38,527 bases of DNA from a virus: positions 1-38,527 of the IMG/VR virus record IMGVR_UViG_3300021091_000179. The stretch is one strand, 5' to 3'. The position numbers were made by a program, and so were the translations under genes. Positions 14,278 through 36,900 of the stretch are shown in pieces (positions within the stretch are counted from its first letter, which is position 1; every line of letters begins with the position of its first letter). The notes below the pieces were generated by a model. That model had not been told where the DNA came from. It searched no databases and saw only the letters and a program-made list of their open reading frames with translations.

Positions 14278-15729
14278 TTACACCACTGAAGTGGTTAGGT
14301 TCGACTTGACAATGTCGATTTGGATTTGGTCACCGATGCTGCTGACCCTCAAACCAACTCTGGCCTTAACCAAACCATCGTTCAGCTGAGAGGCCGGATT
14401 GATTGTTGAGTCGCACTTTACGGTGAAACCTGGGTCAAGCAATCTTCCATTTGCGTCGTACGCTGGATAAAGAGCACCGGTGTCTCTCATCGAGGCGAGA
14501 ATCGCCACAAGTCGCGCCGAAATATTTGAGAAAATTGTGTTTCTTCCGTCAATTGCGCTGAATACCAAATCTTCCAGCGAGCGGTAAGCTTCAGAAACAA
14601 CAGTGTTTACAACATCTTGCTGTGTGATGTACTTGAAATTATCTGTATCAACCGAGCACGAACGAGCACCATAAATTCTTACAGTGTTTTGAATGACTCT
14701 GATTGCATTGACAAAACCCTCATCAAGTTCATCACCGCTAATTTTGTTAATATCAGATTTCACACCAGCCACAAAACGTGACGATGAAAGCAAACCAGCA
14801 GCCGGAACATGAGCTCCACTTTGATTATGAGCAAGAGCCCTCTTTGCGGCAACATACCCAAGTGGTGGAATCATTCGTGTAATTCCAGCAATTGATGTTG
14901 GGACCTCTACCCATGGGTAGAAGTAGGCAGCATGCTCTGAGTGTTCCAATGCCTGCACGGTTAGCGCCGCACTCTTGGCTTGAGCAATTGTTTGTGATTC
15001 CGGTCCAGCGAGAAGAGCAATTCTGTTGTACTCATTTGCATGCTCTACCAGGTTTTCATTCATAGCGTCCGACTGTGATTCCGGACAAGCAACCGCACCG
15101 ACACCCAAGGCGTCATTGAGCAGTCCCAGGCCGGTGTTGTACTGTGCGTCAGTAATGGAAGCGTCGTTTGCTGTTCCGGCAGAAAGGGCCGTAACTGCCA
15201 ACGTGCTCGGGAGTAAGTTTGCGTTATTGACGGTCGCAGATACGTAGCGCGATGCAATCGCGCTTGAATTAATTCTGCCAACCGCCTGAGACGAAGTTGT
15301 TACCGTTCCGGTCGTATAAACAAATTCATCTTCAAAGAACAAAAGAAGTCTAAAAGCTGAGCCGGTATTGATGACCTGAACATCAACATCCTGCGACCAG
15401 CTACCAGCACCATTGGCCGTCAGCGTTATTACCGCTGAGCCCGAATTATTGAGAGCAATTCCACCCAATGTTGCAGCAGCGCCAACTACTCGGACGGCAT
15501 GAACGCGCGTTCCGCCCTCTTCAAAAAAAGTCTCAATCGTAGGATGTAGATACGAGTCTGCGCGATATCCACCGAATACATCTTCAAATTCGGCAAGACT
15601 TTCAACCAAAACGGCTTTGTCGCTTGGGCCACGCGTGGCTTTGCCTACGACGAACAATTGCGATGATTCACGAACTGTCGTTGTCGATGGGCCAGTTCTA
15701 ACTGAAGTTGATATAACTACACCAGGCAT
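14278..15729 (-). CDS. Tail sheath protein
   Basis: The 483-residue product begins MPGVVISTSVRTG, the typical 'PGV' start of sheath proteins. It continues with RGPSDKAVLVESLAEFEDVF and GGTRVHAVRVVG, which is the family's 'G...p..v.S..ef...FGG' and 'GG..c.vvRV' pattern. Near the C-terminus, NAIRVIQNTVRIYGARSCS, RSLEDLVFSAI and FTVKCDSTINPASQLNDG match the conserved sheath core. The sheath contracts around the tube to drive DNA injection. AGGAAGG lies just upstream of the ATG. The 113-base gap upstream (15730-15842) is AT-rich and could hold a promoter, but I see no convincing -35/-10 pair. Confidence 0.93.
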   Translation of the reverse strand: MPGVVISTSVRTGPSTTTVRESSQLFVVGKATRGPSDKAVLVESLAEFEDVFGGYRADSYLHPTIETFFEEGGTRVHAVRVVGAAATLGGIALNNSGSAVITLTANGAGSWSQDVDVQVINTGSAFRLLLFFEDEFVYTTGTVTTSSQAVGRINSSAIASRYVSATVNNANLLPSTLAVTALSAGTANDASITDAQYNTGLGLLNDALGVGAVACPESQSDAMNENLVEHANEYNRIALLAGPESQTIAQAKSAALTVQALEHSEHAAYFYPWVEVPTSIAGITRMIPPLGYVAAKRALAHNQSGAHVPAAGLLSSSRFVAGVKSDINKISGDELDEGFVNAIRVIQNTVRIYGARSCSVDTDNFKYITQQDVVNTVVSEAYRSLEDLVFSAIDGRNTIFSNISARLVAILASMRDTGALYPAYDANGRLLDPGFTVKCDSTINPASQLNDGLVKARVGLRVSSIGDQIQIDIVKSNLTTSVV

Positions 15730-18171: not shown

Positions 18172-18978
18172 CTATCTTCCTTTTGTCCTTCGAACTTTTC
18201 TTTTACCAGCTCTTTTTATAGATTGCTTTCTAGCTCTATTTGCACTTTTGGCTCTTACGGCAGACTGGGGTCTAGTAACTCGTCTTCCGCGAATACCCGT
18301 AGAGCCCGAAACCCCCGGGCGTCCATATGTTGGTCTTTTGCTGATATTGAGCATGTCAATATCCTGTCTTCCACCAGCAAGCTGCTTTCGTATCTTTGTT
18401 CTTTTTGTTCCTCTGTCGCTAAGAATACCGCCCTTTTTATTTTGTCTAGCCATTCTTCTGTCGAACCTTTTCATTACGGCTTGCAAACCTCTTGGATTGG
18501 TTCTTCCTAGCAGTGTTTGCCCACCAGCCACTCGCGCCTGCTGAGCCAGCGCGCTTCTTCCAAGGCTATCCCTTTTACCAAGGATAGTTCTACCTTTTAT
18601 TTTTTTATCACCGGCGGCCTTGCTTCTACGTTCAAATTCATCCATTTGGGAGCGTTTCATAATTGCACCAGTTCTTTTATTCCTGGCAAACTTGTTGCTT
18701 TTGTAGGTTCCCCTTCTTCCGGGTATGCGTGCACCACCACCTCGTGCATCACCGCCATATCTGGCCATTGTTTTAAGGTCTTTGTATCTTCCTTTTTGTA
18801 TGTCGGCATCACTCAAACCAAAAAGTTGTTTTGCCATTTTTGTTGCGCGGTTATAGCGTCTTCGAACATCTCTGTTTACTTTGCCGCCCCTTTTCGACAT
18901 GTCTTTAAATTGCAAAATATCATTTAACATTTGCGCGGCGTCGTCGGTGATGTCTGGGCCGTAGCGTACTTGGGGCAT
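18172..18978 (-). CDS. Very basic Arg/Lys/Gly-rich protein, unknown function
   Basis: ATG at 18978 follows GGAG at a spacing of five. The 268-residue product has a short folded N-terminus (DITDDAAQMLNDILQFKDMS) and a helix (NRATKMAKQLFGLSDADI), then some 190 residues dominated by Arg, Lys and Gly. The C-terminus (RKQSIKRAGKRKVRRTKGR) is extremely positive. Such proteins bind nucleic acid or sit inside the capsid as DNA-condensing or ejected proteins. It lies between the ParB cassette and the connector gene, which hints at packaging or morphogenesis. It could equally be a scaffold tail or a DNA-compacting regulator. No known family is recognised. Confidence 0.7.
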   Translation of the reverse strand: MPQVRYGPDITDDAAQMLNDILQFKDMSKRGGKVNRDVRRRYNRATKMAKQLFGLSDADIQKGRYKDLKTMARYGGDARGGGARIPGRRGTYKSNKFARNKRTGAIMKRSQMDEFERRSKAAGDKKIKGRTILGKRDSLGRSALAQQARVAGGQTLLGRTNPRGLQAVMKRFDRRMARQNKKGGILSDRGTKRTKIRKQLAGGRQDIDMLNISKRPTYGRPGVSGSTGIRGRRVTRPQSAVRAKSANRARKQSIKRAGKRKVRRTKGR

Positions 18979-19045: not shown

Positions 19046-19600
19046 TTACCTATCGGCATTTGGTGGGGATTCAAATTCCATAACTTTCGAATTGGGTGAA
19101 TTTGCTGGAGCCTCTATTGGAACCCATGCTTTTGAATAGTTGTGTTCTTTTATTTTTCGTTGCTTTATTAGGTCCCCGTCCACAAGCACTGCAAGCTCTT
19201 CGTTCCCCATCGATAAATACATTTTCAAATTAGAAATTGAGTAGTTACCTGAATCATGTATTCTCTTGACTGATTTGGAAAGTTTTTCTATAACAATATT
19301 CGAATGACCCCTGTTGAGTCGTATATGTAACATCATTGAATCAATCAAGTCAAGGTCATGCATAACGGCTGGAATTTTAAAATTGCAGCGTTTGGCAATT
19401 TCGTCGATTGATTGAGCCAATAAAAAACGCTCTGAACCGTCAATAATTTCGCCTGTCGATTTTCTGACATGTATTGGCTGTATGAAGCCAAATTCTATTA
19501 AGGACCCAGCAATTAAAAGCAACTCCGGTCTAAGCGTATATGTAACCTTCCAAGACGGAACAACTAATTTAGAAAATGGAATTTCCTCTATTTGAATCAT
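19046..19600 (-). CDS. ParB/Srx-like nuclease-fold protein (IbrB-like)
   Basis: This 184-residue protein has a ParB N-terminal fold. IEEIPFSKLVVPSWK begins it, LLLIAGSLIEFGFIQPIHVR follows, then EIIDGSERFLLAQSIDE (the ParB 'dG.rR...A' motif, D54-R58) and MMLHIRLNRGHSNIVIEKL. Its ATG overlaps the stop of the PAPS-reductase-like gene by four bases. The pairing of a ParB-like protein with a PAPS-reductase-like one recalls IbrB/IbrA. The family includes DNA-binding CTPases, nucleases and small-molecule kinases, so the reaction cannot be told from this. The C-terminus (APANSPNSKVMEF) looks disordered. Confidence 0.75.
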   Translation of the reverse strand: MIQIEEIPFSKLVVPSWKVTYTLRPELLLIAGSLIEFGFIQPIHVRKSTGEIIDGSERFLLAQSIDEIAKRCNFKIPAVMHDLDLIDSMMLHIRLNRGHSNIVIEKLSKSVKRIHDSGNYSISNLKMYLSMGNEELAVLVDGDLIKQRKIKEHNYSKAWVPIEAPANSPNSKVMEFESPPNADR

Positions 19601-20727
19601 TTGGCTATTTCGCCTTCCTCTATCGTTCTTACTGTGTATGCCCTAGTTTTTGGTCCAACCGGAGTCGGGGAATTGACATCAATTTCATTAAGTAAAAGAT
19701 TTCGCATAAGCAAACTTAGCGGATAACCGCGCGGGTCAGTAATGTGTTTTTTTCTAAATTTTGAAACAAAAACCTTTGCTTCTCTTTTTCTTCTATCACC
19801 AACCAAATACTTGTCTATTAATTCTGAGGCTCCATCAAAACCCATTTTTGTATAATTTAAAATTAATTTTTCCATATCAAAATCGGGCCACAAATTTCTC
19901 TGAGCGTCGATGTAGGGGAAACACTCAAACAATCTGTCATAAAATTCTGGTTCAGTCGCTATTACGTCGCCAATTCTTCTGATTGCGGTTGCATGAAGCG
20001 GAATTCCAACACGCGTATTGCTTCCGGTCAGGGAGGCAAGGTCGTAATATCTACAATATTCGGCGTTGTGTTCTTCGATGATGTATTTAAAAACATCATT
20101 GGTGTTCCAGTCATATATTATTTTTGCAAATTTCAGAGGTATTCCGCGCTTCAATTGATATGGCGTCACTATATAGTTTTCGTGCAATTTTTGCACAAGC
20201 GACCTATATCTAACCATTGATTCGCTCGCCCTAACGCCAGTAAGAAACGCAACATTGCCCCTTTTCCCCTGCATCGTGTAGTAATCAGTTTGGTCCGGAA
20301 GTGAAACAGCATGATTCAAACCAAAATCGTCTGCATTGATTGCCCATTCTGGCATCGGCCGAACCCATCTATCCTGAACCATTCTGTCGTAACTCCAAAG
20401 AAGAGTGGTAATTCTTCGCCCAAGAACCCAGATTTCCGCGGGATACGGAAGGCAATACCATTCCATGTCAACCCAGTCATAATTTCTGACTTTTTCTACG
20501 TATTCAATGACTAGGGGACTAACCATCTCTTCGTCTCGAAAAATAACTTTTACCGGGCCGAGTCCACGCTCTTCATGAATTTCTTTAGCGAGATATAAAA
20601 CGGCAGTCGAATCTTTACCGCCAGAAAACTGAACGCAAACAGTATCGAAGATATCGTATACGTGTCTAATTCTTTTTCGCGCCGCCTCAACGCAGCTCAT
20701 GTCAAGAAATAAGCGCTGTCTTGTCAC
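19597..20727 (-). CDS. PAPS-reductase-like N-type ATP pyrophosphatase (IbrA/DndC-like)
   Basis: The 376-residue product has FSGGKDSTAVLYLAKEI at residues 34-50, the PP-loop (SGGKDS) of N-type ATP pyrophosphatases, followed by VKVIFRDEEMVSPLVIEYV, the second strand-helix of the fold. FLTGVRASESMVRY is the conserved 'GvRa.ES..R' segment that contacts the substrate in PAPS reductases. GTG at 20727 overlaps the upstream stop (GTGA); the first internal ATG is nine codons on and lacks a better ribosome-binding site. It is sandwiched between two ParB-like genes with four-base overlaps, so the three form one translation unit. By family it would adenylate a substrate for sulfur transfer or reduction, but in phages the substrate is unknown. 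DNA thiolation is a possibility, not a conclusion. Confidence 0.85.
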   Translation of the reverse strand: MTRQRLFLDMSCVEAARKRIRHVYDIFDTVCVQFSGGKDSTAVLYLAKEIHEERGLGPVKVIFRDEEMVSPLVIEYVEKVRNYDWVDMEWYCLPYPAEIWVLGRRITTLLWSYDRMVQDRWVRPMPEWAINADDFGLNHAVSLPDQTDYYTMQGKRGNVAFLTGVRASESMVRYRSLVQKLHENYIVTPYQLKRGIPLKFAKIIYDWNTNDVFKYIIEEHNAEYCRYYDLASLTGSNTRVGIPLHATAIRRIGDVIATEPEFYDRLFECFPYIDAQRNLWPDFDMEKLILNYTKMGFDGASELIDKYLVGDRRKREAKVFVSKFRKKHITDPRGYPLSLLMRNLLLNEIDVNSPTPVGPKTRAYTVRTIEEGEIAK

Positions 20728-21560
20728 GACGAATGTGTTTTGATGAATGAAATTAATTTTTCTGCAATCGTTGTGCCGGAATAGTTTGCATCAATTTTAA
20801 GTGATTTTATGAACTCATACCAAGATGCTTGTTGCTCTGTTGTCTCAAAAGTTATCTGAACGGTTATTGCTGCGTTCGGAGCAGATGATTTCATCGCGGT
20901 AGTCGAACCGCGAATCGCCGCATCGGAATGGTCAAAACCCGAATTTAATTTGATTTCGTTTTGCCCATCTCTTGTTCTATTTATTGATACAGAGTTTGAA
21001 TCGAAAATTGGTTCATCCGAACCATCATCCCTGGATTCATCTTCTTGCTCCGCATCATTATCCTGGCTCTCTGATTGTCCAATAATCACCGGAGGAACGT
21101 AGGAGCCAGAACGAATTGTTTCGTTTTCGTATCTAACTGATGCTTGCTCAATTTCGGCAATTTCAAATTCATCCCACCCTAGGCCGTCAAGGAGTTCGGG
21201 ATAATAATCCCCAACTTCAAGAATTAATTCATGCAAAATCTCGGGTTCGGTATAGCCGAGCTCCATTGTTCTATTGTCTGCAATAGCAAAAGCTATTGCT
21301 CTCTCGTTGTCGACATCGTATTGTACTGTTGCAATTTTGTCCCATCCAAGCTCTATCGCGGCTTCAAGCTGATGATTTCCCGCGACAACAGTGAATGTCC
21401 CATCGCCATTTGGTCTTGCAACTATTGGTTTTATTTGTCCAAATTCTTCATATGACGCAATAATCGCTTTAATATTTCCTTTTCTTGGATTTTTATCAAG
21501 CCGCTTCAACAGAGATATTTCAATCGCTAGCGGCCTAAGCGATTCGTGAATATTATTCAT
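20724..21560 (-). CDS. ParB/Srx-like nuclease-fold protein, second copy
   Basis: The 278-residue protein has a clean ParB domain in residues 10-115: PLAIEISLLKRLDKNPRKGN, IKAIIASYEEFGQIKPIVAR, TFTVVAGNHQLEAAIELGW (family motif 'G.hR..Aa..lG' with GNHQ here) and AIAFAIADNRTMELG. This last motif is the 'ADN...E' signature of phage ParB-like proteins. After residue 165 come an acidic linker (DNDAEQEDESRDDGSDEP) and a C-terminal domain (ITVQITFETTEQQASWYEF) that may be an interaction module. The gene precedes the PAPS-reductase-like gene with a GTGA overlap. The two ParB proteins in this cassette differ strongly, so they are not recent duplicates. Confidence 0.82.
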   Translation of the reverse strand: MNNIHESLRPLAIEISLLKRLDKNPRKGNIKAIIASYEEFGQIKPIVARPNGDGTFTVVAGNHQLEAAIELGWDKIATVQYDVDNERAIAFAIADNRTMELGYTEPEILHELILEVGDYYPELLDGLGWDEFEIAEIEQASVRYENETIRSGSYVPPVIIGQSESQDNDAEQEDESRDDGSDEPIFDSNSVSINRTRDGQNEIKLNSGFDHSDAAIRGSTTAMKSSAPNAAITVQITFETTEQQASWYEFIKSLKIDANYSGTTIAEKLISFIKTHSS

Positions 21561-21562
21561 AT

Positions 21563-21898
21563 TTACACCTGTGTTCTTACATTGGCATTTAATGTTCTAA
21601 GTGCGTCTATTGATGTTCGAAGCGAAAGAAGAACTTCACGCTTTGATTTAACTAAGGCTTCTGCACACTTAAACTCAAAGTTTTGTTGGTCCATTTTGTA
21701 ATCAGCCCAAGCTTCTCGTTCTTTTATTGAGCCCTTTGCCGATAAATATTCTTTTGCCCAGTTGCTTTTGTAAAGAGATTCTTTTTTGGAACAATCCATA
21801 GCTACGGTCTCAAATTGTTCTGTTTCGTGTTCTAATTTGTCCATAAGTCTAAGAAGCTCTTGCTCTACTTCGACTTGGCTTATCGGCGTGCTTCTCAT
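21563..21898 (-). CDS. Coiled-coil protein of unknown function
   Basis: The 111-residue protein is almost entirely helical with heptads: VEVEQELLRLMDKLEHETEQ and KCAEALVKSKREVLLSLRTS. A central YKSNWAKEYLSAKGSIKERE motif and the ending DALRTLNANVRTQV are familiar from phage genomes where similar small proteins sit next to recombination genes; I cannot name a function. Its ATG overlaps the RuvC-like stop (ATGA) and AAGGA is placed just upstream, so the two are coupled. It may be an accessory to the resolvase or to the ParB cassette. Confidence 0.7.
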   Translation of the reverse strand: MRSTPISQVEVEQELLRLMDKLEHETEQFETVAMDCSKKESLYKSNWAKEYLSAKGSIKEREAWADYKMDQQNFEFKCAEALVKSKREVLLSLRTSIDALRTLNANVRTQV

Positions 21899-22425
21899 TT
21901 TTTGTCCTTTTCAATTAATTCCAACAGTGACCAATCTACTTTAGCTAAAACTTCCAGACTGGTTTTTGGCCAATCAAATCTTTGTTTACCGATTTTGGTA
22001 AGAGCCATTTCTTCCAAAATCCACGCGTCGCACTTATCGTCCGCCCCTGGATTTTTCCAAATCAAACCTGTTTTTGCGGAAACAAAAGAAATTACTTCAT
22101 TTTTCGAAGCATTGCCCCTCCCTGTTGCAAATTTTGCCCGGCATGTAGGCGGTATCTCTATGTAGGGAATATCCATTCTATGGAGCATTACCCTCACGAC
22201 CCCGCCAAGTTCCCCTATTGAATGGGCTTGAGATTTTCGCGACGAAAAAGCATAGCCCTCAATCAGGACTGCGTCTATTTTAAACTCGACAATTAAATTT
22301 CCTATTGACTCAGATATTTCAATAAGTCGTTTTACGCCAGTCGAGCCAACAGAAATAACATCACAGTCGTTGTTGCTGGAATATCCGGTTGACGTCAAAG
22401 ATAAATCAAGGCCCAAGAATCTCAC
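21895..22425 (-). CDS. RuvC-like Holliday junction resolvase
   Basis: The 176-residue product shows the RuvC RNase H-like fold. MRFLGLDLSLTSTGY carries the first catalytic Asp (D7), AVLIEGYAFSS the Glu (E56), and GADDKCDAWILEEMA the final Asp pair (D130/D133), with the conserved basic helix (GNASKNEVISFV) between them. RuvC-like enzymes cut branched DNA before packaging. The start is GTG at 22425 with no strong Shine-Dalgarno. It sits after the terminator and HNH gene in transcription order and overlaps the coiled-coil gene by four bases. It works logically with the Rad52-like and Cas4-like proteins further upstream. Confidence 0.85.
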   Translation of the reverse strand: MRFLGLDLSLTSTGYSSNNDCDVISVGSTGVKRLIEISESIGNLIVEFKIDAVLIEGYAFSSRKSQAHSIGELGGVVRVMLHRMDIPYIEIPPTCRAKFATGRGNASKNEVISFVSAKTGLIWKNPGADDKCDAWILEEMALTKIGKQRFDWPKTSLEVLAKVDWSLLELIEKDKK

Positions 22426-22961: not shown

Positions 22962-23477
22962 CTAAAGATTGCTGTCTTGAATAGAGTCAAAAAGCCATTC
23001 ACCATTCAGGGATGCCCATAAAGACCTATCAATTGCCGTATCTTCTAAATCAAAATCCTTCATTAGGGTTTTGTGTTTGGCAATTGCCCGACGATAAAAC
23101 TCCACCTTGTCCCAACCGTCGGTTTTCATCTCGGTACCGGTTTCAATCATTACCAAAATTTCATCTAGTTTTTTATCTACGTGAAATTTAAACCTACGAA
23201 CGCGTGTTGCTTTTGCGTCGTAATAAGTTCCGGCTTCACGAGACAGGGCGGAACCCTCTCTGCCCATTGACGAAAAACGCTCATTATCAGATTCCGCGTC
23301 TGCTTCAATATTTTCAATTTGCCGCTGAAGATTTTCAGAGAGAGCAATCAAAGCCTCTCGCCATCTTGGCCAATTTTCCTCACGGAGAAGTGTTTGTTTT
23401 TGAATTGGGGATAGTTTATTTTTTACCTCTTCGGCAACCATCCGAGCAAATTCATCATCAGTTAATTTGTCGCTCAT
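22962..23477 (-). CDS. Unknown helical protein between Cas4-like and HNH genes
   Basis: The likely start is ATG at 23477 (MSDKLTDDEFARMVAEEV), 20 bases inside the Cas4-like gene, with GGGGT just upstream. A longer reading from 23570 would overlap over 110 bases and is not supported. The 171-residue product is helical, with coiled coil in residues 40-70 (WREALIALSENLQRQIENIE) and a Ser/Arg-rich middle (RFSSMGREGSALSREAGTYY). The C-terminus (DRSLWASLNGEWLFDSI) may form a small fold. Function is unknown; the place in the recombination cluster suggests a DNA-metabolism partner. The hairpin of the HNH gene begins only seven bases after its stop. Confidence 0.7.
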   Translation of the reverse strand: MSDKLTDDEFARMVAEEVKNKLSPIQKQTLLREENWPRWREALIALSENLQRQIENIEADAESDNERFSSMGREGSALSREAGTYYDAKATRVRRFKFHVDKKLDEILVMIETGTEMKTDGWDKVEFYRRAIAKHKTLMKDFDLEDTAIDRSLWASLNGEWLFDSIQDSNL

Positions 23478-24264
23478 TATTACCCCAGGCTGGACAAATT
23501 TTCTTGAACGAGCACCACCCGCATAAAACTGATTTTTTGTGTGGGAAATTTCCCGACTTGCAACTTTCATCTATATTCCTTTTTGTTTCCTGTATTGTTT
23601 CAATGGCGGAATTGAGGTCCTCCTGCGTGACCCGGCGCTTAAATCTAACTGGGTCCCTGAGGTATAACAACTCAACATCAATCTCATCGAACTCAATGCC
23701 AAGGTGTGACAAAAGCTGAGAATAGGTAATAAGTTGAAAGAATTTCTCCGGTAAATCAATTTCTCTGGGTGTTTTCCCGGTTTTATAGTCACTAATTGTG
23801 ACGTTTTTATCACCAATCAAAATTCTATCAATATAGCCACGCATTTTAACGCCACCAATTTCGCCGGTCACGAAACACTCCATTTTCGATGGAGTAAATG
23901 ATGTGGGATTTTCAAACTCCCATAGATGCTCAATGCACCACCAGGCCGCCCACCTAAACCTATTTAATTCTTTTTCCCCGCGGACAACACTGCTCGTTTT
24001 TTCCTCCCACCGAGAATCCCACAACTCCCTGGCGAGCAATTTTGCTTGCTCCTGTGTGCGTAAATTTGGTGAGAGTTTGTACAGTTTTTCTAAAACATCA
24101 TGGACGTAATTACCAAGTATTGCCTCTTGCCCACTTGGGTCTGGAAGGCCATCAATTTTAGAATATTTAAATTTAAGCGGGCACTGACGAAATGTTCCTA
24201 TCGATGAGGGCGACAAAAACTCCGGAGCAACAAGTTCCTTATTCTTTGCTTGGTTCACTAACAT
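23458..24264 (-). CDS. Cas4/RecB-like PD-(D/E)XK nuclease with Fe-S cysteines
   Basis: I use ATG at 24264 (GGTGGGG upstream, 26-base overlap with the Rad52-like gene) over the earlier TTG. The 268-residue protein has C28 in GTFRQCPLKFKY, the RecB-family His motif in GNYVHDVLE (H55), the catalytic GYIDRILIGD (D146) and ISDYKTGK (D159, K161), then YSQLLSHLG. It ends with CGWCSFKKICPAW (C248, C251, C257). The four cysteines would hold the 4Fe-4S cluster of Cas4/AddB-type nucleases. Such enzymes resect DNA ends and so feed single strands to an annealing protein, here the Rad52-like gene next to it. There is no CRISPR array or cas operon in the window. Confidence 0.88.
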   Translation of the reverse strand: MLVNQAKNKELVAPEFLSPSSIGTFRQCPLKFKYSKIDGLPDPSGQEAILGNYVHDVLEKLYKLSPNLRTQEQAKLLARELWDSRWEEKTSSVVRGEKELNRFRWAAWWCIEHLWEFENPTSFTPSKMECFVTGEIGGVKMRGYIDRILIGDKNVTISDYKTGKTPREIDLPEKFFQLITYSQLLSHLGIEFDEIDVELLYLRDPVRFKRRVTQEDLNSAIETIQETKRNIDESCKSGNFPHKKSVLCGWCSFKKICPAWGNNERQIN

Positions 24265-24964
24265 ACACCCCACCAAATTTTATTCGCAATACTTCCGTAA
24301 TCAAAGATTGTAGGTCTTCAATCGTTGCGGTTTCTTTTTTGGGTTTTGGTTTCCCGCCAGAAGTGGTTTCCCAAAATTGATTTAATTCTACTTTTTGTTC
24401 TTTGGTCAAAGATTTTGTTGCTTCAACAAAATACTCCCACTTTTCTTCGACTTCAGTTTTGGGTTGTTGTTTTTTTTCTACATTGAGTTCCTCGTCTTGT
24501 GTGGGCGCCATTGCTTCTTCTGCGTCAATTGCGTCGGCAGAACGAGACAAATACAGACCGACACCCAGTTGTTGGGCTGCCTTTTTTAGGGCGTCAGACA
24601 CTGCCATCTTGAAAGAATTACCGAGGTCAACTGGCTTTCCCGTTGATTTAATTCTTTTAATACTCGTTCCGCCAACACCATGCTTAACGACATGCTTGCC
24701 CGCTATGTCGACGGAAAGATTTATGTGCGCAATAATTTCATCTGGTTCATGTGTGTCACGTTCAAGACGAATAACCTCAAACGACCATGAATCAATCCCA
24801 AGAACCTTATTCAAACGATTAATTACTTCGCTTACGGGAATAAAACGAAGATTGACACCAGAAACGGTCATCATTTTTTCCATTTCTTCCGGAAATTGTG
24901 CGTAAAGTGCGCGGGTGATTCCGTTGAGGTCTTTATTAATTTGTGTTTCCAATAGTTCAGTCAT
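24239..24964 (-). CDS. Rad52-like single-strand annealing protein
   Basis: The 241-residue product has the Rad52/Rad22 domain in residues 30-145: VSEVINRLNKVLGIDSWSFE, IIAHINLSVDIAGKHVVKHG and FKMAVSDALKKAAQQLGVGL. The last is the family's 'K.A.sDAlKrAA..lG.glYL' signature. In eukaryotes and phages Rad52-like proteins anneal complementary single strands to drive recombination. The C-terminal 90 residues are a charged, flexible region and a helix (EEKWEYFVEATKSLTKEQKV) of unknown role. The gene is followed by the Cas4-like nuclease with an overlap, so a resection-plus-annealing pair is the natural reading. Confidence 0.85.
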   Translation of the reverse strand: MTELLETQINKDLNGITRALYAQFPEEMEKMMTVSGVNLRFIPVSEVINRLNKVLGIDSWSFEVIRLERDTHEPDEIIAHINLSVDIAGKHVVKHGVGGTSIKRIKSTGKPVDLGNSFKMAVSDALKKAAQQLGVGLYLSRSADAIDAEEAMAPTQDEELNVEKKQQPKTEVEEKWEYFVEATKSLTKEQKVELNQFWETTSGGKPKPKKETATIEDLQSLITEVLRIKFGGVYVSEPSKE

Positions 24965-25497: not shown

Positions 25498-26814
25498 TTA
25501 GATGAGTATAGACGCCCTTCTTCTTTGGGGCAATCCCAATCCAGTTAAATATGTATAAGCACCAACCGCGGAGTCAATTTGGTCGTCGTGTGAAGCGGCT
25601 TCGGGGAAAGATGAAAATTCATCAAGCCACGCAGTTAGCCACGGCATTCGCACGACTCGAACATTGCCATTTGCCACGGCAGCAGCAAACGGTCTAGCTC
25701 TTGTCTCTTTGTCGCCCGTTGACCGCAAAGAACTGAAGCTATACCCAGACAGAACATACCTGGCGTATTGGTCAACCAAGGCTTTTCCGCTTGAGCCCGG
25801 CTCTTGTTCCATCACAATAGAAACACCATGCCCGTCTTCGAGCGCTGTTTGGGCAATCAGTTTTTCAACCTTTTCGCCCCTCGCCCGTAGTTTTTTGACA
25901 TCCAAAACATAAGCGATTCCTTCGTTTAACAACATCAACGTGCCAACGGTCCAGTCTGGGTCTGTATTGGAATGCGAAACTTCGGTTGCGGCAAGGTCCC
26001 AAAACCTGACGACTCTTGCCGACGAATTAATTAAGGGTATTTCGCTCTGGTCGATTATTACAAAAGAGGTCCTATCAAACAATGACCCCAGGGTCGTCGA
26101 CCACCAATCGCCTTCCTCCAATCTTCTTCTTTCCACCGGGTCCAGGGCGGAAAGTGATTGCCTATATGAATCGGCATCAATTCCTGGGTTGTCCTTCAAT
26201 CTAGATGGAACGAAAATTCTCCCCTCCGATTTCCCTTCAACGATAAAACGCTGTCGTACCCAGTTTGGGGCAGGGTTTGATGCACACCTCATTCTTAAGG
26301 GAATTTGAGATACTGGCCCTGAGGCTGGACGACGAAGACGGGAAAACAGATATCTATAGTCCGATTCTCGAATTTCGGTAACCTCGTCCATTCCTATAAA
26401 TTGGAATTCCGAACCCTTGTACCTTAAATAATCGTTTGCGTTATTTAAATAACCAAAAGAAATTCTTGCCCCAGACGGAAAAGTTGCAATAAAGGAGTTG
26501 GCGTTCCAATGAACATCTTCATATTGGGATATCCATGATTTGAATCTGTCCATCAGGGCACCAGGAAGAGAAAGGTCAGCAAATGTCCTTCTAAAAAGAA
26601 TTGCCGAATAAGCAGGGACATCAACATATTGCAAAGCAGCCATAAGAAGCGCCGACGATTTGCCGCCACCTGCGGCGCCACCAAAAAGAGCCTCTAACGA
26701 GTATGTTCTTAAAAATACTTTTTGATTTATTGACGGCTCTTCGGGGCAAAACGACGGCATTTTTGGTTGAAGATAATCAAGAACTTTTACCCAGTCTTGT
26801 TTTCCTGACGCCAT
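25498..26814 (-). CDS. terL: Large terminase subunit
   Basis: The 438-residue protein has the packaging ATPase with Walker A GGAAGGGKSS (residues 45-54), an adenine-binding RRTFADLSLPGALM, and Walker B FIGMDEVTEI (D143, E144). The nuclease domain shows VRFWDLAATE (D273), a DWTVGTLML strand, YVLDVKKLRARGEKVEKLI, VMEQEPGSSGK (E336) and SHDDQIDSAVGAYTYL (D410/D411), the catalytic set for cutting the concatemer. AGGAAG precedes the ATG. It is the first gene of the leftward operon and is transcribed away from the portal, which is unusual: in most phages they are co-directional. No small terminase was recognised in the window. Confidence 0.95.
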   Translation of the reverse strand: MASGKQDWVKVLDYLQPKMPSFCPEEPSINQKVFLRTYSLEALFGGAAGGGKSSALLMAALQYVDVPAYSAILFRRTFADLSLPGALMDRFKSWISQYEDVHWNANSFIATFPSGARISFGYLNNANDYLRYKGSEFQFIGMDEVTEIRESDYRYLFSRLRRPASGPVSQIPLRMRCASNPAPNWVRQRFIVEGKSEGRIFVPSRLKDNPGIDADSYRQSLSALDPVERRRLEEGDWWSTTLGSLFDRTSFVIIDQSEIPLINSSARVVRFWDLAATEVSHSNTDPDWTVGTLMLLNEGIAYVLDVKKLRARGEKVEKLIAQTALEDGHGVSIVMEQEPGSSGKALVDQYARYVLSGYSFSSLRSTGDKETRARPFAAAVANGNVRVVRMPWLTAWLDEFSSFPEAASHDDQIDSAVGAYTYLTGLGLPQRRRASILI

Positions 26815-27097: not shown

Positions 27098-29152
27098 ATG
27101 GCTTGGAACAATTCTTCTAATAAATCGATGCGCTCAGAGCAAAAAAAATCTCTTGGTTACGGTTTGCCGATATCAGTAAATCCGTCATTTGCGGACAAAT
27201 CATATAAAGATGGCTGGGACATCGAGCGTGCCTATCGCGAAGGGATGTCAAAAATTACCTGGGTGAATAGGTGTATTGAAGCAATTGCCAGCAACCAGGC
27301 ATACCTGCCAATGATACTCAGAAAGAATAATGACAAAAATGGAGAAAAAATAAAAGGTAAAGAAGCTGAGCGGTCCACAATTTTGGAACTTCTTAACAAT
27401 AAAGCAAATATTGGCGAAAATTCTTATGTTTTCAGATACAGACTTTCGGCACAACTTTTATTAGGAACCAGAGGCGCATTTATTGAAAAAATACGCGGCA
27501 GAGATGGTGGAATTATGGCATTAAATCTTCTGCCGCCACAATCTACCGCGCCGATTCCCCATCCGAAAAAATTTGTTTCCGGATACGAAGTCATGATGCC
27601 ATACGGTGAAAAGACAATTTTGAAACCAGAAGATGTTTGCTGGGTAAGAAGGCCTCACCCCCTTGACCCCTATCTCTCCCTAACACCGCTTGAGGCGGCT
27701 GGTGTAGCAATAGAAATTGAAAACTTAGCAAAAATCTATAATCGGAATTATCTCCTAAATGACGGAAGACCGGGCGGATTGCTTGTTGTCCGCGGCGAAA
27801 TTGACGAAGATGATAAAGATGAACTAAGAAGCAGATTCAGGGGCAATATTTCCAAAACAGGACAAACAACCGTTATATCTTCTGATGAGGGCGTTGATTT
27901 TGTTGATACATCGGCATCGCCACGGGATGCCGCCTACATGCAGATGAGACAGATAACGAAAGAAGAAATACTTTCTGCGTTTGGTGTGCCTGAATCGGTT
28001 ATTGGAAATGCTGCTGGTCGAACATTTTCTAATGCGGCAGAAGAAGTCCGTGTGTTTTGGGTTGAAACAATGAGGCCGCACTTAGAGGTGCTTTCACGAG
28101 CCCTTGACGAACTTGACGAAAAATTTTACATTGATTTTGATACGGCAGAAGTTCCGATTCTTATGCTCTACAAACAAGAGCGCGAAAGATATTTAATGCA
28201 GGAACTACAAGCGGGATTGATTAGCGTAAACGAATACAGGTCTGGCTCGGCGAGAAAAGAAGTTGAATCAGACCTAGCAGATTCATTGTTGATGAATCCA
28301 AACCTCATACCGATTGCGAACACCAAAAAGAAAATGGAAGAAGGCGCGGCTCAGGTTCCTGGGGCGCCAGGTGGAATGCCGGGTATGCCCCCAATGCCTG
28401 GAGCGCCGGGTGCGATGCCGGAAATGCCACCAATGCCTGGAGCGGAACAACCACCTCTCGACCCAAACACAATGCAAGGCGCAATGGCCGAGGCAGCAAC
28501 CGGCGGAGAACTCGCACAAAGCCCACTCCCACCAGAAGCCACCACTGGGACACCGGCACCGACAGGAATCGTTACAGCATCGGATTCTGGAATTCAAACA
28601 AAATCAGAAGAAAACAATTCTCAGTTTGATGTTGAAAGATGGTCAGAGATACTTTCACGCGGAATTGAAAGAGTTATTGAACGCCAACAACGAGTTGTTC
28701 TTGAAAAAATTGGTGGAGCAAAATCCAAAAAAGCGCTTACGGCCGGAACGCTAGATGTTGATTCAATTATCTCGACCGAAATTTGGAACAAACAAATGGA
28801 CGACGATATAAAACCCGTCATCTCAGCGATAATCAATGATTCCATAGCCAATAGGCAGGCCACCTATGAATTGAAAGGCATCAAATCAAAACAAATACAA
28901 CCCCTTGAAGTTGTTAAAGCAATTGATTCACGCATGCTAAACATCAAAAAGATAAACAAAAACGCACATTCCGAAATAACTTCTTTGATGATGAAGTCTT
29001 TCAAAATCCAGAGCGAAGAAGAACGATTCACCTCATTTCGACAAGATGTTGTTGAAATGTATGCGAATCTTTTAGCCAAAGAACATATTGATACAGCAGA
29101 AACAAATGCCGTATCAGCATGGAACTTCGGGCAAGGAAATCTATTTCTTTAA
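27098..29152 (+). CDS. Portal protein, HK97-type
   Basis: The 684-residue protein has the HK97-family portal core: KITWVNRCIEAIASNQAYLP, PEDVCWVRRPHPLDPYLSLT, LEAAGVAIEIENLAKIYNRN, YLLNDGRPGGLLVVRGEID, and the clip/stem region QMRQITKEEILSAFGVPES followed by FSNAAEEVRVFWVETM. Portals form the dodecameric DNA gate of the head. Residues 415-460 are an unusual Pro/Gly/Met-rich linker; residues 510-680 form an extra helical domain (WSEILSRGIERVIERQQRVV, EITSLMMKSFKIQSEEERF) ending in TAETNAVSAWNFGQGNLF, a possible internal fusion such as a barrel or anchor. The gene is preceded by a weak ribosome-binding site. Confidence 0.92.
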   Translation: MAWNNSSNKSMRSEQKKSLGYGLPISVNPSFADKSYKDGWDIERAYREGMSKITWVNRCIEAIASNQAYLPMILRKNNDKNGEKIKGKEAERSTILELLNNKANIGENSYVFRYRLSAQLLLGTRGAFIEKIRGRDGGIMALNLLPPQSTAPIPHPKKFVSGYEVMMPYGEKTILKPEDVCWVRRPHPLDPYLSLTPLEAAGVAIEIENLAKIYNRNYLLNDGRPGGLLVVRGEIDEDDKDELRSRFRGNISKTGQTTVISSDEGVDFVDTSASPRDAAYMQMRQITKEEILSAFGVPESVIGNAAGRTFSNAAEEVRVFWVETMRPHLEVLSRALDELDEKFYIDFDTAEVPILMLYKQERERYLMQELQAGLISVNEYRSGSARKEVESDLADSLLMNPNLIPIANTKKKMEEGAAQVPGAPGGMPGMPPMPGAPGAMPEMPPMPGAEQPPLDPNTMQGAMAEAATGGELAQSPLPPEATTGTPAPTGIVTASDSGIQTKSEENNSQFDVERWSEILSRGIERVIERQQRVVLEKIGGAKSKKALTAGTLDVDSIISTEIWNKQMDDDIKPVISAIINDSIANRQATYELKGIKSKQIQPLEVVKAIDSRMLNIKKINKNAHSEITSLMMKSFKIQSEEERFTSFRQDVVEMYANLLAKEHIDTAETNAVSAWNFGQGNLFL
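28363..28445 (+). repeat. Met/Pro/Gly-rich linker repeat in the portal
   Basis: The stretch encodes GMPGMPPMPGAPG followed by AMPEMPPMPGAEQ, two copies of a 13-residue unit built on PMPGA. Unlike the rest of the gene it is rich in C+G. It separates the portal core from an extra C-terminal domain and is probably unstructured. Confidence 0.7.
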
Positions 29153-30942: not shown

Positions 30943-33900
30943 TTATTGATAGGCCAACTCTCGGCGGTGGACGTGGTCGTCGTGGCGGAGGTTTTGGTGT
31001 CCCGGAGGGCGACCTAAACCCCGAAACCCGCGTAGATAAGAATAGAAACGGATGGTTGTTTGACAATATTCCGGGGTGGGAACAAGTCGACCCAACACCC
31101 TACGGTCCTGGCTCAATATATAACGCGGAATTAACCCCAGAACAACGGCGCGATAGCGGAAAAATTAAACCAGAAGGAAAGCCGATTGATGGTGCGGCTG
31201 ACCTTGAAATTATTCCACCCAAACAAAAGCCAAAACCACAAAAAGCAAAAAAAAATGAAGAAAGAAGACTTTCCTCGGGAAGAAATCTTTCTAGACATGG
31301 TCTTGGAAAAACACACGAAGAGAAATTTGGTGTCAGTAGAGACGAAAAAACAAGAAGAGAAAATTTTGACAAAACCGTTCAGAATTGGATTGACTCTCAA
31401 ATGGGGTGGACCGAAGTTCCAAGAAGCACAAGTGATAAAAAGGAAACAGAAAGCTTTCTCCGTGGTAGAGAGCTTGGGGTCAATCAGTCACGCGTAGCGT
31501 GGCGCGGAACCGGAAAAGGAAACGGTAAAAGGCCAAGTAATTTTAATGAAAAAGCAAAATCGTCAGAAGATTACACAAATTGGTTTTATGCCTATTCGGG
31601 ACATCTTGGAAACTTTATTTCTGCATTAAATAGCAGAGAAGATAAAAACACTGCTGACGACATAAAAGATTTTAATCGAGGAATTAGAAATGGAATTGCG
31701 AATGATGTATTCGCAAAAATACCAGACACCAAGTCTTGGGATAAAAAAAATTCCGAAAATCTTTCAAAATGGCTTTCCGAATATGGATTCAATCCTCAAA
31801 AATCTCGTGATGGAAGACTTTCTTCCGGATTTTTGGAACCACCAGTTAATCGAGGGGAAAAAACTAGAATTCCGGGTCTCGATGAGGGATTTGACCCCGA
31901 TAACCCGTTTGGTGACGAAGATGCGCCGTATGACATTGGATTTGACATTTATGACCAAATAATTAAGGAATTCCTGGGAGACGAAGTCAAAAAAGACGAA
32001 CCGCGAATAATCCCGAACTGGACCGACAAACAAATTTATGAAAAGCGAATGGAGGGCATGACGCTTCAGGATGTTGCCGACAAGCTTCGAATCACGCGCC
32101 AAGAAGTAAGACAACGCGAATTAAGACATATGGACGAGATGCGAAAATTAGCGGCAAGTGGAAAAAGAAAAACCAGGGGACCCGCCAAGAAAATAAGAAT
32201 AGCAAATCTCTCTGAAGATGATAAAAATAAAATTTACGAAGAAAGAATTGCTGGAGCCAGTATTAAAAAATTGGCTCAAAAATACAACATAAGAAAAAAT
32301 AATGTAGATGTTGTCGTTGCCGAAATTTCAAAAAAGAGAAAAGACGAAGACTCGGCAAACAAAACAAGACGAGAAAAAGAAATATCAGAAGCCAAAATCC
32401 GAGAACAAAAACCAAAACCACAAGAAGAAGAAAAAGAAGAGGAAGACTGGTCGCGCGGACTTTCTTCTGGAGCAAGCACAAACAAAAAACTTAATGAGAG
32501 TGGCGCTCTCGGCTATGTTCTTGAAACTTCGTCAAAGCAAAGAAAAGACAGGCTCTCGTCCGGCGCAACGCTGAAGGATGGCGAATTGCAGCAGATGTTT
32601 GACAACATGTCTGCTCAAATAATTGAGTCGCTGCAGAAGGCTATGAAAAATCCCCAAAAGCAATGGAAAAGACCTTGGGCTAACGCGGAAGTTTATGCAA
32701 GAAATATAACCAATACAAGATGGAATCCCGATGGTAGGGCATACGAAGGAGCAAACCAGTTCATGCTTTCCATGAAGGGGAGCCTCAGTGGATATAAGAC
32801 AAATAGGTGGGCCGGTGCTGGCCAATGGAAAAAAATGGGTGGAAAAATTAAGGCGGGCGAAAAGTCAACCGTAATTCTTGCTCCAGACATAATCAACGGC
32901 AAAAAAGTTGCTAACAAATTTCATCTAACCGAGGTTTACAACGTCGCTCAGATATCTGGATTGCCAAAAGCCATGTATGAGTCGTCTCCATTAAAGATGA
33001 CAGACGAACAACGTCTTGAAACAATACAAGCAGTAATAAGCGAAATAGGTCCTGATTTTAGAGAAGGAAATTTCGGCGGAGCTTTTTATTCGCCGAATAA
33101 AGACATGATATTCATGCCACAATTCGGCACCTTTAACAACCCTATTGCTTTTTACTCAACCCTTCTTCATGAGATGACACACTGGACGGCCCATCCGTCT
33201 CGCCTCGGAAGAAAATTTGGGAGAATGAATGCTCCAAAAGCAACTGACGACTATAAAAAGTACGCATTTGAAGAGTTGATTGCAGAAATAGGTTCATCTT
33301 TGATGATGGGCATGCTTGGCCTTGAACCAGTTTTCAGAGATGACCACGGCCAATACTTGGCAAGCTGGCTTGAAAACATTCAACAGGACCCAACGGCAAT
33401 AAGAAGGGCTTTGACTGAAGCACAAAAAGCCGTTGACTACATGCTCAATCGCTCACCAACCATGCGAAGAATGCTTGGTATGGACCCAACGGAACGCAAA
33501 GTTAATGCTGACCTCCGCTTTGAAGTTCCAATGCTTGAAGGCATGCCAGATTCACCAAAAATTCCTGGCTCAGGAAGACCAAAGGGAACTTTTGAAATGC
33601 CAGACGAAGACATGGATGAGCGTTTGTCTTCTGGCAAAATCGAAGACTTTGCAAAGAAACCGTTCAAAGCTGGCAAAACACACAACATTGGTGGCCGTGG
33701 CTGGCGTGCAGTTGATAGAGAAAATGGAGACAGAGAGGTATATCACTACGGAACAATGATGGGCGTTATTCGTGGGGGCAAGTACTACGAAGCATCCAAG
33801 GGTTGGGATTCTGTTTCCGATAAGCAAGGAGTAAAAAAGATTCTTCGCGCCCTTGGACAAGACGCACCAGAACCAATGGCGAATATCGAAGCTGTTGACC

Positions 33901-36900
33901 GCCTATCATCCGGCAAGATAGAACAATTCGGCACACGTCCGCACATTCCAAATAAAGTTTCCTTCGCCGGTAGTAATCGCGCATGGAAGTCCATTGATAT
34001 GGACAATGGCGATAGAGACATCTACCACTACAACACGAGAATGGGATTCATAAGAGACGGAAACTTCTACCAAGTTTCAGATGGATGGGGTTCCGTTTCT
34101 GACAAACAGGGAATACGAAAAATTCTTCGTTCTCTTGGTCAGAAGGAAGCAATTCGCTGGACATCGTATGATGGATTTGAACTTAAAGATGAAAGAAGAT
34201 TAGCAAGCGGTCGTGAAATCAAAACGGATAAACGTGGGCGGATTATTGACTTAACTGGAAGATTGTCAAGCGGTTCTGATTCTGGCTCAATAAAGCCAAT
34301 AAAGCCTGAGCAGACAGACAACAAAGACCTTCACATAAAGAGAAGCTCTTCTAGCATTTCGTTCAAGGCTGCTCACAGACTTGCGTTTGAACCAACCCAA
34401 CAACAAAGAGACATAATCGATATTGGCATGGACCTTGTGATGGGCAGGGTTGGTAACAGAATTCTTTCAATTCAGGCTGCAGCCGGAACTGGCAAAACAA
34501 CAACACTTAAGATGCTGTCAAAAGCAATAGACCAAGCTTTCAAATTAGATTTGGTTGATGACGATGTCGAACTAAATCACAAATTGGCCTTACTTACCGA
34601 ACGATTTGCTGAAGATTTAGCAGAGATGGGCATAAAAGACCTCAGAAAAATTCCAATTGACAAAGCAAAAGAAGCAGTAGCAAAACTAAACGAAAAACAC
34701 GGTTCAAAAAATCTTTACTACGGCGTATTTAATAGAAATAATCAGTTCGAAGCAGAGCGAGGATTTCCAAGAAATACTGGAATATCAACTTTGGACAAAC
34801 TTGCTTTCTGGGGCCTAAGACTTGGAGCAGCTGACGAAAAGTTTGGGCCACATATTGCAGAAAAAATGCAACTAAGAAGACTAAACCTTAATTCGGCTGC
34901 ATCATTTACACAAGACGGGAAACCAATCAGAAAGAAAAACCTTAGAAAGACAAAAAACGGCACACCGCTAACTTTTACCGTTGACAACTATTTAACTAAA
35001 AAAAGAGTTGAGATAACTGGAGAAACTCCGGTTCTTGAAGATACGGGGTTGGTTGAGCTTTCAAGGGCAGAAGATTTTATACGCTTCTTTAATTTGAGGG
35101 GCTTGTTCCACAACCCAGACAAACCACCGGAAGGCAAGCAAAAAGCCATTCCAACAAATGGACATCCACAGTTTGCACAAATGACGGTAGATGACCTCGG
35201 ATTTTTGATTGCGAAAGCAGTAGAAAACTGGGCATACAGCACTGACGAAAAACTCAGCGCAAAACACTTTGCATTGACACCGGGGCAAATATCACAAAAG
35301 CGCAGCGCTAGGGGCTCAAAGAAAAAAAGGCTCGTAAAAGGATTCCGCCCAAAAAATAGCCGAGACGACGGTGGCGGAGTTTTTGAAGAAGAAGAGGTAG
35401 ACCCTCTTGTTGACAGTGATTTTTTTATTGCGGTTGCAGCCGACCCAGAAAAGTACATTCCAAAAGAATGGGTTGAATTTGGAACAAGAACGGTAAGCGC
35501 ATTGCAGGATAAGTTCATAAAAGACAACGACGGCAAAAAAACTTTAAGCCCTGTTGTTCCAGACCAAACACAGACGTATAAATTGTTTGCTCTTTCCAAC
35601 CCGAATCTTTCAGAAGCCAAATACATGATTGGACATGCGGATGGCTCTACAAAGAAACAGGGGGTTAGAACAAGTGGACAACTAGGCGATTATGTAAACG
35701 GTGACGGCCAAGTTCTAAAAATGGGCAAAGACGGAAAATTTGCTCCCGACACAGACCTTGACAACGTGTGGGTTATCACGTCATTTAAGGGAGAAAGAGG
35801 CAAAAAAGGAACTCAAAGTGCCGTTATTCAAAAGTCGTTTGCAAACCCAGGAAGACCGGCTTCTGCATTTTTGATAGACGAAGCCCAAGACCTCAACCCA
35901 GTGATGATGCAAGTTCTTGAAGCGAATAAAGAAAATATGCCAATTATCTTGGTTGGGGACTCAAGACAAAAAGTTTACGGTTTTAGAAGAGCCATAGATG
36001 CCCTAAGTGCAATAAATCCAGATTATGTACTTCCACTAAATGAATCATTCAGATTTGGTTCAAAAATTGCCTATCTTGCAAATGTTTTGCAATTCCTTGG
36101 GAATATCGATGATGAAGAAAAAGGAATTCCAAATCTCAGAATGCAATTTGTCAGCGGACATCTACAGGATGTTGTGCGTGGTCAGTTTGATTCCGCAATA
36201 GAGCTTCTCAACAAGAAAGATAGAAACTTTGAGGAAAATAAAACCTTAACATCATTACTTGTACAAATAGATGAAGAATTTAAGATTTCCAAAACACTTG
36301 GCCCAAAGAAAAACGGTAAAGACAAAAATGGCGAACTGCTATCGATAGCTGATGACAACATTCCGGATTCGGAGAGAGTAAAAATCCTTTCCGATAGAAA
36401 AGATTCAGCCGTAAAAGAAGCAACCGGAGAAATTTGGGATTCAGAAACTCCACTCTTGGATGAAAAAGGAAATCCCGTACTTGACAGCAATGGGATTCCG
36501 GATTTAGTGGGACCGCTTCTTCCAACAAGGGGAAGAACATACGCATATTTGACAAGAGATAATGCTGAAATATTTGAAGCAGCGACAAGACTCGCCACAC
36601 ACTTGAGATTTCAGCTCGAAAAAGACATGCCCGATAATGGCCAACCATGGGAGAGGATGTCGCCGCAAATAGCAACATCAGCAAAGAAGCATGATGAGCT
36701 TATAAAATTCTTCAAACATGCTAAATGGATTCTGAGCACAGATGAACACAAGCGCAAGTACCCAGATAGTAGACCAGAAGCGTCAGGCTTGCTGGGAAAT
36801 ATTTGGACCAAAGAAGATGTTGATAAGCGACTTGGGCAGGCGCGATACCAGCAAGCGACGACATTGTGGGGATTAATATTCCCGAAAGGAAAAGACGGAA

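Follow-up and report, generated by a model that had tools for sequence, protein, structure and literature searches.

ParB-fold proteins accompany several kinds of DNA-modification genes, among them the Dnd, Dpd and CmoX cytosine-modification loci (PMC10853773, PMC12839542, PMC12783734). The phosphorothioation systems of DndC, SspD and BrxP with DndB combine a PP-loop enzyme with a ParB-superfamily protein, and their target is DNA. In phage cytosine hypermodification by CmoX/CmoY, a carboxymethyltransferase and an AMP-forming ligase, ParB-domain proteins are often found beside the enzymes and the second step is an adenylating one (PMC12783734). The DpdA/preQ0 loci of mycobacteriophages use a TGT-like transglycosylase. 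DNA of the B2 phage Rosebush contains dPreQ0 at about 28% of G; no 7-deazaguanine was found in DNA of Orion, another mycobacteriophage, which has DpdA only (PMC6884629), so that modification does not follow from the mere presence of a gene of such a locus. A different activity has been described for the IbrA/IbrB pair of E. coli, which according to Sandt et al. 2002, as cited in PMC10434257, activates the eib prophage genes. For the phage cassette described below, the literature searched yielded neither experimental work nor a report of DNA modification in any phage carrying it; the closest statement found notes a resemblance of prophage PAPS-reductase-like proteins to DndC (PMC8092301).

The window analysed here, one 38,527-base record of an uncultured virus (IMGVR_UViG_3300021091_000179), is a fragment of a contractile-tailed phage with genes for tail sheath (14278-15729), terminase (25498-26814) and portal (27098-29152). 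The nearest relatives of its terminase occur in Gordonia phages (about 44%), and megablast of the first 25 kb against phage records gave no match. Three genes follow one another on the minus strand: ParB1 (20724..21560, 278 aa, ATG start), the PAPS-reductase-like PP-loop enzyme PAPSR (19597..20727, 376 aa, GTG start) and ParB2 (19046..19600, 184 aa, ATG start). Their coordinates confirm the overlaps of exactly four bases reported in the first-pass annotation, at 20724-20727 between ParB1 and PAPSR and at 19597-19600 between PAPSR and ParB2. On one side the cassette is bounded by two fixed neighbours of the same strand, a phrog_1389 protein (21563..21898) and a RuvC-like resolvase (21895..22425), which precede ParB1 wherever the listed relative contigs reach that far. 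On the other side, directly downstream of ParB2, a basic R/K-rich protein (18172..18978, minus strand) is found, which is fast-evolving and has no PHROG or Pfam match; its position is kept in 71 of 80 relatives. Further out lie recombination genes (Rad52-like, PD-(D/E)XK, HNH) and the terminase one way, and tail genes the other way.

Two regions of the window outside the cassette deserve mention. A Rad52-like annealing protein adjoins a Cas4-like PD-(D/E)XK nuclease (23458-24964, minus strand), likely as a phage recombination pair. On the plus strand, a single ORF of at least 2490 aa covers positions 31056-38525 and extends past the end of the window. This region appears gene-free when open-ended frames go unlisted, and an alternative genetic code at 31-38.5 kb was rejected, the region being one open-ended giant ORF.

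An IMG/VR scan with PAPSR as query delivered 80 loci of close relatives (77-99% identity). ParB2 is located directly downstream of PAPSR in all 80, and ParB1 upstream of PAPSR in every contig extending far enough; the scripted ParB1 count of 74 leaves out L014, where the ORF start was miscalled, and L087, which has a 2.2-kb insert, while four contigs end early. The spacing is less strict: ParB1 and PAPSR overlap by exactly four bases in 23 loci and are about 160-260 bases apart in some 35, and the distance between PAPSR and ParB2 ranges from -71 to +2, mostly -4 or -11. Four-base overlaps are thus common among the relatives and not invariant. In L016, L025 and L029 the spacer of about 200 bases between ParB1 and PAPSR encodes a small coiled-coil-like ORF (NENxELRAE...RL), which was seen in many relatives and is missing where the two genes overlap; the insert of L087 (5735-8001), observed in this one relative, separates ParB1 from PAPSR and contains several small ORFs.

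All three genes are under purifying selection, and the cassette is not a chance assembly. From pairs with unsaturated dS (L009, L011, L012, L014; dS is saturated in more distant relatives), dN/dS was lowest in the block for PAPSR (about 0.02-0.03), with about 0.03-0.05 for ParB2 and about 0.05-0.08 for ParB1. PAPSR retains 83% identity at distances where ParB1, ParB2 and RuvC drop to 53-56%, a level of conservation equalled by the terminase. Few genes of the block are conserved as well as PAPSR, and within the cassette it ranks first.

The order ParB1-PAPSR-ParB2 was also detected in Mycobacterium B3 phages, in Arthrobacter phage Salgado, Bacillus phage 035JT001 and Rhizobium phage L338C, in the M. 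abscessus prophage prophi79-1 and on the Amycolatopsis plasmid pAmyja1, a phage-plasmid encoding terminase and portal. The loci of B3 phages such as Akoma, of Salgado and Laroye, of prophi79-1 and of pAmyja1 comprise the same three families, homologous over most of their length, but the identity of PAPSR to the window enzyme is just 37-41% in Akoma, Salgado/Laroye, prophi79-1 and pAmyja1; in contrast to the window, loci of this type often include an extra methyltransferase and/or lie directly beside TerL. pAmyja1 shows the same four-base overlaps, and in prophi79-1, 035JT001 and B3 small genes or a methyltransferase intervene among the three genes. In the Bacillus and Rhizobium phages, the cassette has dUTPase, SSB and RusA genes around it or a ribonucleotide reductase gene nearby. 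A scan with the 035JT001 enzyme found no viral relatives, its search patterns probably being too specific. Since the same order recurs in unrelated phage lineages, a second ParB is the normal phage form; the first-pass annotation was right in likening the locus to IbrA/IbrB, to which PAPSR-ParB2 corresponds, but the additional ParB that it remarked on is not unusual.

Two annotations at these loci are probably wrong. The 'DNA methyltransferase' of Rhizobium phage L338C (L005, 4007-4702) is probably a ParB1 homologue, and the 'nucleotidyltransferase' of prophi79-1 (L004, 7544-8638) a PAPSR homologue. Just upstream of ParB1 in L338C, a second short protein (L005, 3595-4014) matches the ParB1 C-terminal domain at 27.8 bits. 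In Mycobacterium phage Gaia (L203, 4317-5216) an IbrB-like ParB stands behind about 130 extra N-terminal residues and adjoins a distant PAPSR; the annotation given to this gene is ectoine synthase/ParB multidomain protein.

Phage PAPS-reductase-like genes are common and often annotated as sulfur assimilation, and the residues argue against that here. PAPSR belongs to phrog_2302 (E 6e-76) and matches Pfam PF01507 (PAPS_reduct) with 42 bits, above the cut-off of 22.5. Phage and bacterial members share, without exception or nearly so, the PP-loop SGGKDS, D65/E67 (DxE), W111, R123, G164-R166-E169-S170-R173 (GxRxxES..R), D206-W207 and D211 (DW..D), Y228 and R239. CysH PAPS/APS reductases carry a C-terminal catalytic cysteine motif, ECGxH. 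This motif is missing from the window PAPSR, whose five cysteines (12, 31, 92, 225, 269) leave the last 100 residues Cys-free, which makes sulfate reduction unlikely.

The AF2 model of PAPSR (pLDDT 82) was compared with known folds by VIA-align. The PAPS domain of FAD synthase ranked first (Z 16.2; a match at the level of fold only, with 18% identity), followed by CysD and APS reductase (both Z 14.3), while tRNA and LarE sulfurtransferases and lysidine synthetase reached Z values of about 10-11. FAD synthase and CysD, which are among the closest folds, are adenylyl transferases, and ATP-dependent adenylation is the best-supported candidate chemistry; likeness of fold alone does not fix it, and the match to APS/PAPS reductases is no poorer than that to CysD. 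The same ranking would fit equally well an enzyme that adenylates or edits a nucleotide, a cofactor or a counter-signal (flavin, sulfate, NAD-like compounds or a defence signal) and never acts on DNA, and the ectoine synthase/ParB annotation of Gaia's homologous ParB gene also favours it. The low identity to FAD synthase counts against such a role, the ParB-fold partners and the exchange with DpdA described below point towards DNA, and we consider it rather improbable.

The first-pass annotation had named sulfur transfer as what the PP-loop enzyme might serve, and this part of its proposal has lost ground. PAPSR could, in the manner of DndC or SspD, thiolate bases or the DNA backbone: it is a PP-loop protein and weakly resembles DndC and BrxP (E 1e-8), Cys225 is present in 98% of phage members, and the sulfur could come from the host, since DndA is replaceable by a host desulfurase (PMC10853773, PMC12839542). 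However, the DndC model TIGR03183 gives 28.3 bits against a cut-off of 290, the Cys pair shared by those enzymes is lacking, and no DndD/E- or SspB/C-like partners were seen at the locus. No cysteine is invariant across phage and bacterial members: 97% of the bacterial ones have Asn at position 225, L095 and L096 do not have Cys there, and the homologue of 035JT001 has a single Cys. Cysteine desulfurase (PF00266) was found in 0 of 17 related viral contigs, which may be fragments, against 14 of 14 in the control, and TtuA/LarE-type sulfurtransferases (Z about 10) rank under FAD synthase and CysD (14-16) in fold. A thiolating enzyme therefore seems quite unlikely.

ParB2, with its conserved C-terminal YSxAWxP, is an IbrB-like single ParB-fold protein of phrog_2159 (E 9e-20); Pfam ParB_N remains below cut-off (E 0.004), and membership in the ParB/Srx superfamily is indicated by profile, for ParB1 by fold and profile. 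Its P-motif is intact (GSER, with R58; GSER or GFHR among ParB2 proteins). The Arg of this motif is required for nucleotide binding in ParB/Srx NTP-binding proteins (PMC12704722). Among 80 loci of bacterial genomes, a ParB2-type gene lies directly or closely downstream of PAPSR in nearly all, as it does in all eight of L089-L096, and ParB1-type genes occur in only four of the 80. PAPSR and ParB2 correspond to the bacterial IbrA/IbrB pair. The DUF3440-ParB pairs of bacteria, plasmids and Streptococcus and Escherichia phages share with the window the order of the pair, the PP-loop and the R/E/S motifs. They differ in that nearly all lack ParB1, Asn replaces Cys225, and their enzyme carries DUF3440 (PF11922), which matches a bacterial member at 5e-78 and neither the window PAPSR nor the 'IbrA' of L338C. 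Distant PAPSR homologues were also noted on 564 plasmids, mostly of Klebsiella and E. coli, many annotated as DUF3440 or PAPS reductase.

This correspondence brings in the main alternative, transcriptional control, in which PAPSR-ParB2 would co-activate phage or prophage genes like IbrA/IbrB, ParB1 would be an additional regulator bound to DNA, and the DNA would stay unmodified. The homology, the nearly constant adjacency of the two genes, bacteria included, the annotation of Streptococcus and Escherichia phage pairs as co-activators and the reported effect on eib all fit it. A fully conserved ATP-pyrophosphatase site would be odd in a pure regulator, though, and ParB1 is common to PAPSR and DpdA loci. 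The window cassette is located between recombination/packaging and structural genes and not at a regulatory switch, and activation by IbrAB could itself result from DNA modification. On balance we regard a purely regulatory role as unlikely, with more in its favour than the other alternatives.

ParB1 is assigned to phrog_723 (E 2e-35), scores above the cut-off of Pfam ParB_N, and its AF2 model, which matches ParB/Noc CTPases (Foldseek 1e-7), comprises an N-terminal ParB/sulfiredoxin-fold domain, a long low-confidence linker and a small, unnamed C-terminal domain. Its P-motif reads GNHQ, without the Arg of canonical ParB; the Arg is also missing from ParB1 of DpdA loci (GNHT) and retained in some other ParB1 proteins. 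ParB1-type domains are fused to phage DNA methyltransferases as well (phrog_498). The C-terminal domain (20727..20876, minus strand; about residues 229-278, YxIxFDxxxQQxxWxxFxxxLK...TxAERL) was found in 76 of 76 close relatives and in all PAPSR-adjacent ParB1 proteins of the Arthrobacter-type group, but in none of 19 ParB1 adjoining DpdA; a profile built without the window still matches it at 1e-13. The domain tracks the neighbouring enzyme, occurring with PAPSR and not with DpdA. No relationship between the PAPSR-type and DpdA-type C-termini was detectable, so that a true domain swap and fast divergence look alike here. Two confident helices after a possible strand resemble a ribbon-helix-helix on paper, an assignment unsupported by Pfam, PDB sequences and hhalign.

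A pointer to DNA comes from the Bclasvirinae, where one slot between ParB1 and the terminase holds different enzymes: ParB1-gp2-gp3-PAPSR-ParB2-TerL in the B3 phage Akoma, ParB1-DpdA-TerS-TerL in the B4 phages KayaCho and Stinger, and ParB1-DpdA-QueC-QueD-QueE-FolE-TerL in the B2 phage Hedgerow. The flanks are homologous (ParB1 core 47-58%, TerL 58-60% identical), a RuvC gene lies near the slot here too, and ParB1 is directly upstream of DpdA in 18 of 18 DpdA loci. The B2/B4 loci thus share with the PAPSR loci the slot, the ParB1 core upstream of the enzyme and the terminase downstream, and differ in the enzyme, the lack of ParB2 and the ParB1 C-terminus. No TGT/DpdA genes were found in the PAPSR phages and related contigs, nor PAPSR in 11 DpdA records, the latter in a search run without a positive control of its own. 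The exchange is known from one phage subfamily and may represent one or two events. That PAPSR with ParB2 and DpdA replace each other in the same slot supports a role in DNA modification, the direction in which the first-pass annotation had pointed; the evasion of host defence that it suggested as the purpose is a conjecture.

The same proximity to the terminase could suggest a role of the ParB proteins in binding the genome close to the terminase step, or in partitioning a plasmid prophage: TerL lies next to the cassette or not far from it in B3, PJN03 and Amycolatopsis, and the ParB fold matches Noc/ParB. Yet in the regions examined of the Bacillus and Rhizobium phages the terminase is no direct neighbour, the canonical partition model TIGR00180 scores ParB1 at 40.1 bits, below its cut-off of 58.45, and does not match ParB2, and the PP-loop enzyme, the most conserved of the three, would be left unexplained. 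We consider such an accessory role very improbable.

There is good support for viewing the cassette as a phage form of the IbrA/IbrB pair that is widespread and includes a shared accessory ParB, and it is most likely a DNA-modification module. For the specific proposal that two ParB-fold proteins assist an enzyme modifying DNA (or nucleotides) by adenylation, we see about an even chance. PAPSR with ParB2 would spend ATP through the PP-loop, most likely by adenylating a substrate, and the outcome would be a modified base in the phage DNA or a modified nucleotide precursor. With its nucleotide-binding Arg retained, ParB2 would be a partner subunit or a nucleotide-gated switch. ParB1 would be an accessory whose ParB-fold core is common to other DNA-modification loci and whose C-terminal domain, specific to PAPSR loci, probably serves as a docking site for the enzyme or for the target of the enzyme. 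In this proposal gene content, order, selection, conserved residues, folds and the exchange with DpdA are observed, and we infer DNA as target, the adenylation chemistry and the roles of the subunits. Two facts speak against it: bacterial IbrAB loci nearly always lack ParB1, and what has been reported for IbrAB is co-activation of transcription. CmoX/CmoY, to which an adenylating step and ParB neighbours would liken the cassette, has enzymes unrelated to PAPSR.

More tentatively still, the whole IbrA/IbrB-type family (the phage cassettes, the DUF3440 pairs on hundreds of enterobacterial plasmids and E. coli YbdN/YbdM) might be widespread but unrecognised enzymes that place an undescribed modification on DNA bases in an ATP-dependent manner, with ParB1 as an interchangeable targeting adaptor for otherwise unrelated phage DNA-modification enzymes. 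The DNA-modification idea is directly testable because the cassette is present in public, culturable phages, and the ParB1/DpdA exchange leads to a specific hypothesis: the culturable B3 phages of M. smegmatis should carry a modified nucleoside made by the cassette. If this is true, it would suggest a biochemical reason for the co-activator effect of IbrA/IbrB and a role for 'orphan' phage ParB proteins.
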